Assembly: GCF_001874145.1 (NCBI RefSeq)
Contig: NZ_MPCX01000005.1
Span: forward strand, 124,001-188,000
Direction: 5' to 3'
Source of the DNA: Lacinutrix sp. MedPE-SW
GTDB lineage: Bacteria > Bacteroidota > Bacteroidia > Flavobacteriales > Flavobacteriaceae
Length of the DNA stretch: 64,000 bases
Position 1 is the stretch's first letter, and each line of letters begins with the position of its first letter. Positions 36,013 through 41,400 of this stretch are shown here, piece by piece. The notes below the pieces were generated by a model, which searched no databases, had not been told where the DNA came from, and saw only the letters and a list, made by a program, of their open reading frames with translations. The position numbers were made by a program, and so were the translations under genes.

Positions 36013-36870
36013 CTAAACCGTTTCAGTTGTAGACTCTAAAACACTAATATCTGCTTTTTCATCTACTTTATAAACTACAGCTTTAACAGTCTCAATTTGT
36101 TTTCTGTTTTTTGTAATTAAAATTAACTTTCCTTGAGAATCATGGTGTATTAATTTTAATATTGTATTAGTATGCTTTTTGTTATTTAAAAAAGCCTCTT
36201 GTATAAGTAAATTCTTTTCAGAAAAAACAAATACCGTCATGTGCATTGCAGATTGCTTAATATAATAAGCTATGGTTTTACTAATAGCAATTATAGCAAC
36301 AATACTATAAGCAGCCATTGTAAAATCGTTAAACACAAAAATACCCAAAGCAATTACAATACCATCTACCATTAATATTAATTGACTAAAAGGACGTTTA
36401 ATTTTTTTTGCCAGTATACGAACTAAAATATCATTTCCTCCAGTGGTTGCACCAGCTTTCATTACCATAAAAACAGAAAAACCAATAATTACACCACCAA
36501 ATATCGATGAGATTAAAACATCTTCTACAAATATCTTATTTCTAAATATTTTGGTGAAAATGTCTATATAAAAAGACACCAACACCATTGAAAATGCTGT
36601 TTTTAAGCCTGTTTTTTTTCCCAATACTTTTGTTCCCCAAAGTAATAATGGAATATTTATACACAAAGCTACTATACCAACAGATAAACCTGTAAGTTTA
36701 TTTGTTACAATACTTAAACCTAAAATACCACCTGGCACAATATTATGTGGTATAATAAATATTACATACGCTATAGCTAATATTAATGACCCAATCATGA
36801 CATTAGTATAGCTTTTTAACTCTTTAACTGTTTGCTCTCTTTTTAGTAATACTGTGATTTTTCTTATCAT
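36013..36870 (-). CDS. YitT family membrane protein
   Basis: This 285-residue protein has five to six hydrophobic segments between about 22 and 195, with the YitT/DUF161 patterns P-G-G-I-L-G-L-S and A-G-A-T-T-G-G-N-D-I. A cytoplasmic C-terminal DUF2179 domain follows (about 205-280). The family is thought to be transporter-like, but no substrate is established. Upstream on the same strand lie two short-ORF/terminator units, and the nearest hairpin ends 13 bases before its start. This suggests transcriptional attenuation or simply an unrelated neighbour. Confidence 0.9.
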   Translation of the reverse strand: MIRKITVLLKREQTVKELKSYTNVMIGSLILAIAYVIFIIPHNIVPGGILGLSIVTNKLTGLSVGIVALCINIPLLLWGTKVLGKKTGLKTAFSMVLVSFYIDIFTKIFRNKIFVEDVLISSIFGGVIIGFSVFMVMKAGATTGGNDILVRILAKKIKRPFSQLILMVDGIVIALGIFVFNDFTMAAYSIVAIIAISKTIAYYIKQSAMHMTVFVFSEKNLLIQEAFLNNKKHTNTILKLIHHDSQGKLILITKNRKQIETVKAVVYKVDEKADISVLESTTETV

Positions 36871-37052: not shown

Positions 37053-37088
37053 AAAAAAAAAGCGTTCTATTAAAAAATAGAACGCTTT
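37053..37088 (-). terminator. First minus-strand hairpin terminator of the short-ORF pair
   Basis: AAAGCGTTCTATT pairs with AATAGAACGCTTT around a TTTT-type loop and is followed on the minus strand by an unbroken T run. It lies 26 bases after a 20-codon reading frame. Confidence 0.85.
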
Positions 37089-37250: not shown

Positions 37251-37280
37251 AAAAAATACTATGCGTGCATAGTATTTTTT
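37251..37280. promoter_or_regulatory. Perfect 30-base palindrome, operator-like
   Basis: Fourteen-base arms (37251-37264 and 37267-37280) are perfectly complementary around GT. The core TATGCGTGCATA matches the palindrome at 33843-33854 in 11 of 12 bases. It lies 40 bases before the start of the kinase-like gene and about 36 bases behind the short-ORF promoter, so it could control both directions. With a 2-base spacer it is better suited as a dimeric-protein site than as an RNA hairpin. Confidence 0.5.
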
Positions 37281-37319
37281 GTCAATAAATAACTACCTTA
37301 TAGGCATTGAATTATTACT

Positions 37320-38381
37320 ATGAACGAAAAATTAATATCTAAAAAAAAACCAGCATATCCAATAACAGATAAGTTGTCAAAATACCTTAGTGAGCAAGGC
37401 CGAAACATAAAAATTCCAATTTTTTATGATGATCTTTTACGCTTTCAAGGTGCAGTAGAAATTTTTGATGATAATGATAATGATACACTTTGGGTAAGCT
37501 GTTATTATGCCGAGCATGAAAGAGATGAAATAGAGTTAAGTTTAAAACAAATGTATTCTATATTACATTCAGACGGTAGTGACTCTATTCTACCCTATTT
37601 AAATATTGATAGTATTGATTTTTGCACCTTTGGTAATACTAAACCTTTTCGTATAAAAGTTAGAAACGTATTAAATGATAACTATATATTTTTATATATA
37701 AAAAAAGCAGATGCTTCCAGAATTTACGGTTTAGAACTTGAGCATATTCTATCGCCCAACCATATAAACTTTTTAGTTCATAAAGACACTTTAATAGAAG
37801 AACATATTTCTGGAATTCCTGGTGACACTTACATAAGCGAATACCTAAATAAAATTACAGAACAAGATAAACGTGCATTAGCCAAAGAGTTTGTTAAATT
37901 TAATGAGCGCTGCTTTGTAAGACTTTTGGCAGATATGCGCTCGTATAATTATGTAATTGTAATTACTCATGATTTCGACCGTATTCAATATAGAATTCGC
38001 GCAGTAGATTTCGACCAGCAAAGTTATGAAGGTAACCCAAAAGTATATAAACCACAGTTTTTAAAAGAAAACAATGCTTTAGTAAAAATGAGTATAGAGG
38101 TTTTAGCTAAAGAGTCTATAGAACAATATAAAAAAGAAGAACGTTCTCTTCTAGCAAAGCGAGCAACAAGCGAGCAGGAACGCTTACAAGATTTAATTAA
38201 TTGCATGAAAGAAGATACAATTTCTACAAATGCTAAAATTAAAGAATTAAGGTCTGGCTTATTTAAACTCACTAACGATGTAAGGTTTAAACGCTCTAAA
38301 AACATGGGAGAATTACTAAAATCTGCATTAGATTTTATTATAAGAAATTACCAAAACGAAAATCCATATATTATAAAATAA
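37320..38381 (+). CDS. Uncharacterised protein with kinase-like motifs, paired with pyruvate carboxylase
   Basis: I do not recognise a named family. The 353-residue soluble protein shows motifs in protein-kinase order. There is Y-I-F-L-Y-I-K-K (Lys128/129, possible ATP lysine), then Glu139 or Glu141. A hinge-like L-I-E-E-H-I-S-G-I-P-G-D spans 158-169. Asp205-M-R-S-Y-Asn210 has the D-x4-N spacing of a catalytic loop, and A-V-Asp230-F-Asp232 resembles the metal-binding DFG. The last 100 residues are a charged helix. It ends 27 bases before pyruvate carboxylase, so cotranscription is likely. Kinase activity is an inference from spacing alone. Confidence 0.7.
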   Translation: MNEKLISKKKPAYPITDKLSKYLSEQGRNIKIPIFYDDLLRFQGAVEIFDDNDNDTLWVSCYYAEHERDEIELSLKQMYSILHSDGSDSILPYLNIDSIDFCTFGNTKPFRIKVRNVLNDNYIFLYIKKADASRIYGLELEHILSPNHINFLVHKDTLIEEHISGIPGDTYISEYLNKITEQDKRALAKEFVKFNERCFVRLLADMRSYNYVIVITHDFDRIQYRIRAVDFDQQSYEGNPKVYKPQFLKENNALVKMSIEVLAKESIEQYKKEERSLLAKRATSEQERLQDLINCMKEDTISTNAKIKELRSGLFKLTNDVRFKRSKNMGELLKSALDFIIRNYQNENPYIIK

Positions 38382-38408: not shown

Positions 38409-41400
38409 ATGAAAATTAAAAAAGTTCTTGTTGCTAACAGAAGTGAAATTGCTATTCGCGTTTTACGAGCTTGTACAGAGTTAAACATAACAACTGTAGC
38501 CATTTATACGTACGAAGATCGCTACTCGCAACATAGAAATAAAGCTGATGAATCTTACCAAATTGGAGAAAACAACCAACCATTAAAACCCTATCTAGAT
38601 ATTGAAGCCATAATAGATTTGGCAAAATCTAAAAATGTAGACGCTATACATCCAGGTTATGGTTTTTTATCTGAAAACTCAGAATTTGCAAGACAATGTG
38701 CCGCTAATGGTATTATTTTTATTGGTCCAGACCCAAAGGTTATGGACGCGTTAGGCGATAAAATTACTGCAAAAAAAGTAGCAGTAAAATGTAATGTACC
38801 AATTATAGAAAGTAATAAAAAGAAACTAACCTCTTTAAAAGTAGCGCTTTCTCAAGCCGAAACTATAGGTTATCCTATTATGCTTAAAGCTGCCTCTGGT
38901 GGTGGCGGTCGTGGCATGCGAATTATTAGAAAAGCTGAAGATTTAGAACTAAATTTTGACTCAGCAAGAAATGAAGCATTAAATGCTTTTGGTGATGACA
39001 CCATGTTTTTAGAAAAATATGTTGAAGACCCAAAACATATTGAAGTACAAATTGTTGCAGATAATCATGGTAATATTCGCCACTTACATGAACGCGACTG
39101 CTCTGTACAACGTCGACATCAAAAAGTAGTTGAAATTGCACCATCACATAATGTAAGTGATAATGTTAAACAACAATTATATAAATATGCTGTTTCTATT
39201 GCCAAGGAAGTAAGTTATAATAACATTGGTACAGTAGAGTTTTTAGTAGATAGAGAAGATAATATTTACTTTATAGAAGTTAATCCTAGAATACAGGTAG
39301 AACATACCGTTACCGAAATGGTTACAGGTATAGATTTGGTAAAAACACAAATTTTTGTTGCTGGTGGTTACAAATTAAACAGCCAACAAATAAAAATATA
39401 CGATCAAGATTCTATAGCTACCTATGGTTTTGCATTACAATGTAGACTTACAACCGAAGATCCTGCCAATAACTTCACACCAGATTATGGTAATGTAACA
39501 ACATATCGTAGTGCATCTGGTATGGGTATTCGTTTAGACGCTGGTAGTATATACCAAGGCTATCAGGTAAGTCCGTTTTTCGATTCTATGTTAGTAAAAG
39601 TTTCATCACATGGTAGAACCTTAGATGGTGCTACACGTAAAATGATTCGAGCTTTAAAAGAATTTAGAATTCGTGGTGTAAAAACTAACATTCACTTTTT
39701 ACAAAATGTAATTCAGCATCCAACATTTAAAGATGGAAAAGTAACCGTTAATTTTATTCAAAATACACCTGCACTTTTCAAAATAAAATTACCACAAGAT
39801 AGAACTTCAAAAGTAGTTAAGTATTTAGCTGAAACTATTGTAAATGGCAATCCTGATGTAAAGTTTATTGAAGAAAACAAGGTGTTTAGAAACCCTAAAA
39901 TTCCAAAGTTTAGTTTATCTGAAGCTTATCCAAAAGGCACAAAAGATTTACTTACAGAGTTAGGACCAGAAAAATTTTGTGCTTGGTTAAAAGATGAAAA
40001 GAAAATTCATTTTACAGATACCACAATGCGAGATGCACACCAGTCACTATTAGCAACACGTATGCGAACGTTCGATATGCTTAAAGTAGCCGAAAGTTAT
40101 GCAAAAAACCATCCTAATACATTTAGTATGGAAGTTTGGGGTGGCGCAACTTTTGATGTTTGCTTACGTTTCCTGCACGAAAGTCCATGGACACGCTTAA
40201 GAGAATTGCGTAAAGCAGTACCCAACATATTATTTCAAATGCTATTACGAGGCTCTAATGGTGTTGGTTATAAAGCATATCCAGATAATTTAATTGAAAA
40301 GTTTGTAGAAAAATCTTGGGAAAATGGTGTTGATATTTTTAGAATTTTCGACTCCTTAAACTGGGTAAAAGCTATGGAGCCAAGTATAAATTATGTTCGT
40401 AATAAAACTGGCGGAATAGCAGAGGCAGCATTAAGTTATACTGGCGATATTTTAGATGTTAACGAAACAAAATACAACCTAAAATACTACACACAACTTG
40501 CTAAAGATTTAGAAAATGCTGGTGCCCACATGATTGCCATAAAAGATATGGCAGGTTTATTAAAACCTTATGCTGCAACAGAATTGGTTTCGGCGTTAAA
40601 AGACACTGTAAATGTACCAATTCATTTACATACTCATGATACCTCATCACTACAAACAGCAACCTATTTAAAAGCTATAGAAGCTGGTGTAGATGTTGTA
40701 GATGTAGCATTAAGTGGTTTATCTGGGCTTACATCTCAACCTAATTTTAATGCGGTTGTAGAAATGATGAAAAACCAACCAAGAGAACACCAGTTCGATA
40801 TGCCAAAATTAAATCAGTTTTCAAATTTTTGGGAAGACACTCGTGAGTTGTACTACCCATTTGAATCTGGTTTAAAAGCTGGAACAGCAGAGGTTTTTGA
40901 GCATGAAATTCCTGGCGGACAATATTCAAATTTAAGACCACAAGCTATAGCTTTAGGTTTAGGTGATAGGTTTGACGAGGTTAAAAAAATGTATGCTGCT
41001 GTTAACAAACTATTTGGCAATCTAGTAAAAGTAACACCAAGCTCTAAAGTGGTTGGAGACATGGCGATTTTTATGGTTACAAATAATCTTACCACAGAAG
41101 ATGTTATGGAACGTGGTGAAGAAATTTCGTTTCCAGAATCGGTAATTAGTTTCTTTAAAGGAGATTTAGGTCAGCCAGCTGGAGGATTTCCTAAAAAGCT
41201 TCAAAAAATAATTCTAAAAAACAGAAAGCCATATACTAATAGACCAAATGCACATTTAGAACCTATAGATTTTGATACTGAGTATAAAGCCTTTAAAAAG
41301 AAATTTCAAAAAGGATTTACAAGAGCTATAGAAATGGAAGATTTCTTATCGTACACTCTATATCCAAAAGTTTTTGAAAAAGCCCATGAAAATTATAAAA

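Follow-up and report, generated by a model that had tools for sequence, protein, structure and literature searches.

A predicted kinase-fold protein of an uncatalogued Bacteroidota family, encoded next to pyruvate carboxylase

In the window, by which we mean the whole 64,000-nucleotide stretch of Lacinutrix sp. MedPE-SW DNA that was analysed, an open reading frame with an ATG start (37320-38381, plus strand) encodes a kinase-like protein of 353 residues. By its predicted fold and motifs, the protein belongs to the protein-kinase-like superfamily, and its family is uncatalogued yet widespread among the sampled Bacteroidota. An initial annotation had noticed this unrecognised frame 27 bases before a pyruvate carboxylase gene (pyc) on the same strand, and the position is correct: pyc starts at 38409 after a gap of 27 nucleotides and extends to 41861 (plus strand), with matches over the cut-off to the NCBIfam models PRK12999 and TIGR01235. 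Our leading reading, which we put forward tentatively, treats the protein as a kinase that is catalytically competent, represents an undescribed family, and most likely phosphorylates a target in PEP-pyruvate metabolism.

Predicted fold and conserved residues

The AlphaFold2 model of the whole protein, built from 35 sequences, had a mean pLDDT of 85.0 and a pTM of 0.83. The kinase core (residues 88-348, 37581-38363, plus strand; model ma21d4a7e0fac) was also folded and searched separately, and its model, built from 40 sequences, reached a pLDDT of 85.3 and a pTM of 0.81; the two models share sequences and are thus not fully independent. In the full model, residues 1-87 (37320-37580) form an N-terminal extension of a helix, a beta hairpin, and a second helix. 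The core begins with three strands, the third of which ends in K128-K129, followed by the helix that carries E141 and by two strands ending in E160-E161-H162. H162 is followed in the models by two helices and the D205 loop, and then by a hairpin of two strands that leads to D230, beyond which there are only helices.

When the models were compared with the PDB using Foldseek, the best 50 matches were all kinases, for the whole model and the core alike, with weak best E-values (1.7e-4 and 9.8e-5, respectively) and poor superposition (among the matches listed, TM-scores were 0.22-0.29 with the whole model and 0.29-0.38 with the core). Kinases were also most of the named matches listed among the viral models of BFVD. 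VIA-align, which only re-ranks the Foldseek matches, best aligned 274 residues of the whole protein with VPS34 (Z 11.6, 4.8 A) and 225 of the 261 core residues with PI3K gamma (Z 11.3, 5.0 A); by the program's own standard, a model that lacks a clear match reaches a best Z of 7-8. The kinase-like fold that had been proposed from the order of motifs is borne out in this respect, as both models have kinase topology, the listed matches of both programs are kinases, and no contrary fold was seen. Judging from these models, we regard a kinase-like fold as very likely. It is very improbable that the protein is no kinase at all and that the motif order and the predicted fold are both misleading: such a reading could point to the lack of a sequence-based match to any kinase family, but two predictions and three fold comparisons agree, and the conserved residues sit where the fold demands.

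Residue conservation was read from 28 aligned sequences, namely the window protein and 27 relatives with 41-76% identity to it. K128, E160, H162, D205, N210, D230, F231, and D232 are invariant in all 28; E139 and E141 are kept in 90% or more of the sequences, whereas K129 reaches neither level and is conserved only among closer relatives. In 35 sequences with 60-85% identity to the window protein, K128, D205, N210, and D230-F-D232 are also unvarying. All residues that the initial annotation had named (K128, K129, E139, E141, D205, N210, D230, F231, and D232) and its hinge-like segment L158-I-E-E-H162 are present as described, and the conservation it had called for is found for K128, D205, N210, and D230 in all 28 sequences, down to 41% identity. 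As the residues are invariant or nearly so across these sequences, the motif order is more than chance.

The positions of these residues in the modelled core are those expected of a kinase. The loop C102-T-F-G-N-x-K-P109 (37623-37646), in which C102, N106, and P109 are invariant, lies between core strands 1 and 2 (residues 94-102 and 110-116); it occupies the place of the phosphate-binding loop and may serve as such. K128 (37701-37703), at the end of strand 3 (residues 121-129), is by analogy the ATP-binding lysine, and E141 (37740-37742), in the helix of residues 132-144, is by analogy the glutamate of helix C. The hinge-like I159-E-E-H162 (37794-37805) is found at the strand of residues 157-162, the catalytic loop is D205-x4-N210 (37932-37949), and D230-F-D232 (38007-38015) is the metal-binding motif in place of DFG. 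A second D-F-D at residues 218-220 is, in the model, the turn between the strands 211-218 and 221-228, and D230 follows directly after the second hairpin strand, which is the expected site of the metal-binding aspartate of kinases. In the proposed mechanism, ATP would be bound between the two lobes, where K128, E141, and the loop that includes G105 would hold it, with D205 as the catalytic base and N210 and D230 holding the metal.

Because the lysine, the catalytic aspartate, the asparagine, and the metal-binding aspartate are all invariant, an active kinase is likely rather than a pseudokinase, and we consider the protein to be probably enzymatically active as far as its sequence tells. The window motifs read A-D-M and D-F-D, not HRD and DFG. 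SelO and SidJ are members of the superfamily that do other than phosphate transfer or regulate by nucleotide binding, and the atypical motifs (D-M-R for H-R-D and D-F-D for D-F-G) would suit a protein that uses the kinase fold to transfer a non-phosphate group or that regulates partners by binding a nucleotide. We consider this improbable, as the full set of lysine, glutamate, catalytic aspartate, asparagine, and metal-binding aspartate is conserved, which would not be expected of a degenerate pseudokinase.

Distribution of the family and comparison with known kinases

A scan of genome contigs yielded at least 581 relatives, and the 80 that were kept all came from Bacteroidota by title. The family was present in 33 of 60 relatives' genomes (whole-genome search), in 80 of 296 sampled genomes of the phylum (one as a fragment match with an E-value of 4e-8), and in 129 of 395 sampled genomes of the class (a few of them fragmentary), mostly with one copy per genome. 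No relatives were found on plasmids by tblastn with a deep relative (L148) as the sole query or in phages with the window protein as the sole query. Pfam, NCBIfam, PADLOC, PHROGs, and the PDB sequences, searched with single sequences and with profiles, gave only weak and inconsistent matches; those to CFAP300 (E-value 0.00054, 1 of 28 members) and YuA_Gp49 (E-value 0.0057, 1 of 35 members) did not recur and were therefore put down to chance. A kinase-fold family carried by about one quarter to one third of the sampled Bacteroidota genomes is hence nameless in the five libraries searched, and a search of one literature library with chosen search words returned no paper on it. Passages of a survey of Legionella kinases indicate that new families of the superfamily are still turning up by this route (PMC9758233).

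None of the 28 members matched the Pfam models for PI3/PI4-kinases (PF00454), Ser/Thr kinases (PF00069), AceK (PF06315), APH (PF01636), or DUF2252 (PF10009), and there was also no match to HipA_C (PF07804) at E-values up to 10, though the filters drop most matches above 0.1. As judged from these searches, this is a new family within the superfamily that is not AceK, HipA, APH, PI3-kinase, or Ser/Thr kinase. We also compared profiles of HipA (13 sequences), APH (14), and DUF2252 (2) with the family, using 11 unrelated sets as controls. The scores of HipA (21.5) and APH (23.4) were above those of all 11 controls (11.0-20.4), and the score of DUF2252 (17.1) was within the controls; in this comparison, only the position of the match is informative. 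The E-values of 0.05-0.27 were weak, and the best one (APH, 0.049) was reached at the catalytic loop only. All three profiles put their own catalytic loop on D205-x4-N210, and in the APH alignment the region past this loop was misplaced relative to D230.

The catalytic loop, which reads A-D-M-R-S-Y-N in the window protein, is G-D-M-H-x-G-N in deep relatives and there resembles its counterpart in HipA and APH kinases; the short HipA forms of the window's order have N-D-M-H-x-K-N. The spacing also bears on this comparison. The initial annotation had seen a caveat in the 20 residues between N210 and D230, and this distance is real, but it does not disqualify the protein, as the distance from the asparagine to the next conserved aspartate is 17-19 in seven HipA-type proteins of the window's order; in five APH-type proteins it is 13, which sets APH apart from the family. 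A toxin-antitoxin partner, as might accompany a HipA-type protein, was not noticed in the neighbourhoods read.

The best core superpositions of VIA-align were obtained with catalytic domains of PI3K, VPS34, and PIKK (Z 9.1-11.3 over 215-227 residues among the best 50 matches), which share only 8-13% identity with the protein among these matches, and no lipid-kinase context was seen around the genes of the family. A Z of about 11 at 4-5 A supports membership of the modelled core in the superfamily more than in the PI3/PI4-kinase family. As VIA-align re-ranks Foldseek matches, a greater closeness to PI3K than to HipA or APH is not established, and the absence of HipA, AceK, and APH structures among the best 50 of these re-ranked matches is uninformative.

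A possible alternative, which we consider rather unlikely, is a small-molecule kinase, acting on a sugar, in metabolite repair, or similarly, like the APH, fructosamine, and homoserine kinases, which would feed or detoxify central metabolism and not regulate an enzyme. The segment after D230 is short, with nothing but helices behind it, and would fit such a kinase, as would the G-D-M-H-x-G-N of the deep relatives next to the APH-type H-G-D-x-x-x-G-N and the enzyme-like single copy in most genomes. However, the neighbouring genes vary and spell no one pathway, and the APH model matches no member of the 28.

AceK, the isocitrate dehydrogenase kinase, is a bacterial member of the same superfamily and acts as a switch at a carbon branch point. 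A likeness of the family to AceK would lie at most in this way of working. AceK was found in eight of the 296 phylum genomes, five of which also carry the kinase-like family; the idea that the family replaces AceK is unsupported, since these five genomes have both.

Pairing with the pyruvate carboxylase gene

A tree of 67 rows was built from a chosen subset of loci; two genes, and also one identical pair, are in it twice. The window protein falls within a clade of 32 rows (SH-aLRT 99). For 22 of these 32 rows, pyc is the next gene. The other ten rows correspond to nine genomes, seven of which are metagenome-assembled and may be incomplete, and in none of the nine was pyc found at E-values up to 1e-250; the pair in this clade is therefore adjacent wherever pyc is seen. 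Long flanks were available for 19 loci, at which the pair was kept with 15 different upstream genes and 14 different downstream genes (18 loci readable). As the pair is kept while its flanks change, this is strong evidence of selection on the pair. In the clade of the window, the two genes would form a two-gene operon.

Outside this clade, the picture is different. Most members of the family are not near pyc, and in the other large clade it is a solitary gene flanked by genes of the opposite strand. Pyc was present in 19 of the 60 relatives, and the kinase of the clade is absent from 12 of the 19; nine of the 12 carry only a more distant copy of the family (56-63% identity), and three are without the family altogether. 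The initial annotation had raised the idea of a dedicated kinase or pseudokinase that controls anaplerosis. Of this view, the adjacency in the window's clade and its persistence amid changing flanks stand, but a strict dedication to pyc was rejected, as each of the two genes occurs without the other and most members of the family lie elsewhere. We accordingly regard it as improbable that pyc is the sole target.

Four genomes of the window's genus (G002, G005, G006, and G012) have a pyc-linked copy (87% identity) and a second copy elsewhere (58-59%), and they offer a natural pair for comparing function. At two loci (L035, and L209 from G009), pyc is split into several open frames, and at L209 the kinase-like gene is split too, which may be due to sequencing error or decay.

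Central carbon enzymes and other neighbours

Other enzymes of central carbon metabolism also adjoin genes of the family. A pyruvate kinase gene lies upstream at a locus of the window's clade without pyc (L204), malic enzyme is a neighbour at L151, class II aldolase at L145, L215, and L224, and at L249 GAPDH and PEP synthase are found on either side of the gene. The neighbours that exceeded the NCBIfam cut-offs were PEP synthase (four), GAPDH (two), pyruvate kinase, aldolase, and pyc; malic enzyme was assigned by its best NCBIfam match, which was below its cut-off. A strict criterion was written down after the first neighbours had been met, and 40 fresh loci were then taken. Two of these 40 counted under it (L273 and L289, both with PEP synthase), and divergent neighbours were one PEP synthase (L290) and one GAPDH (L286). 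Of the next 40 loci, one counted (L340), which is not independent because the link had already been seen in that family, and the divergent neighbours were three PEP synthases, from the family of L290, and one GAPDH, from the genus of L286.

For a statistical comparison, 226 loci were merged into 82 contexts and searched with 19 E. coli enzymes (two of them cut short, and pgi missing) and the pyc of the window. Central carbon enzymes made up 9 of 240 adjacent gene types versus 7 of 849 non-adjacent ones (odds ratio 4.7; one-sided Fisher p 0.0028), and without pyc the enrichment at adjacent places had a p of 0.0074. The seven non-adjacent hits retain a biotin-carboxylase-like hit to pyc (L210) and a weak PEP-synthase-like hit of 25% (L036), which counts against the link. 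Since the enzymes were chosen only once the first hits were known, the p for the whole data is post hoc; the fresh loci alone gave 4 of 118 adjacent versus 2 of 297 non-adjacent (p 0.057). Recurring gene clusters numbered four at adjacent places and 23 at places two to three genes away, and since recurrence in two placements is thus common farther off, recurrence alone proves little. No neighbour other than PEP synthase occurred in three different placements. Taken together, a wider link of family genes with central carbon enzymes is suggestive.

These data also bear on whether the protein could be a housekeeping kinase of unrelated function, with the pyc pair and the other carbon neighbours as accidents of lineage. 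The solitary gene of the second large clade, the occurrence of pyc and the kinase each without the other, and the borderline result for the fresh loci would all agree with it. We nevertheless consider it unlikely, as the pyc pair persists while nearly all its surroundings change and as the neighbourhood test on all data gave a low p.

PEP synthase was found in 15 of the 80 phylum genomes with the family and in 18 of the 216 others. A family dedicated to PEP synthase was rejected, as 65 of the 80 family-bearing genomes are without this enzyme. The known regulator of PEP synthase is the PEP synthase regulatory protein (PF03618), with which the family shares that its target recurs as a neighbour of family genes. 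The window protein has no match to PF03618, and this model found no protein in any of the 296 phylum genomes, even though PEP synthase is encoded in 33 of them and the controls E. coli, B. subtilis, and Caulobacter were positive.

As genes of the family tend to adjoin those for enzymes of sugar and pyruvate conversion, the protein may be a metabolic switch. In our leading reading, that of an active kinase in PEP-pyruvate metabolism, the gene would tend to adjoin PEP synthase, GAPDH, pyruvate kinase, malic enzyme, or aldolase across the family, and the phosphorylated target would be either an enzyme, as in a branch-point switch, or a metabolite. A role in this part of metabolism has, in our estimate, not quite an even chance. 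A bolder version, which we consider speculative and unlikely, is that aerobic Bacteroidota share a branch-point kinase, comparable to AceK at the glyoxylate shunt of other bacteria, that phosphorylates enzymes between PEP, pyruvate, and oxaloacetate and that each lineage re-linked to the enzyme most controlled, namely pyc in the window's clade and PEP synthase, pyruvate kinase, or malic enzyme elsewhere. If it is true that PEP-pyruvate enzymes are phosphorylated, this would show how abundant marine and soil bacteria switch between sugar breakdown and synthesis, and the kinase-pyc pair offers a first candidate substrate.

Some further features of the surroundings were noted. Three loci of one family (L160, L226, and L230) have a pyruvate-flavodoxin oxidoreductase gene three genes upstream on the same strand, and the kinase-like gene lies there between a flavodoxin-like gene and rseC-/rnfB-like genes, which were recognised by eye. 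At six loci of deep relatives (L148, L150, L153, L154, L155, and L157), a glycosyltransferase gene that by eye resembles bshA, which functions in bacillithiol synthesis, lies directly upstream on the same strand, and these upstream genes have 68-81% identity to the copy at L148. In many deep lineages (L148 to L157, L221, L223, L229, and L233-L238), the next gene after the kinase-like one is a convergent metallo-hydrolase-like gene, also recognised by eye.

In the window itself, two strong hairpins (37059-37088 and 37251-37280; RNA fold z -3.8 to -5.2) lie between the divergent genes at 36013-36870 (minus strand) and 37320 (plus strand), and Rfam gave no match. A short transcript from the minus strand would be in keeping with a TTGACA box at 37285 and with terminator-like sites at 37088-37059 and 36921-36888, all of them on that strand.
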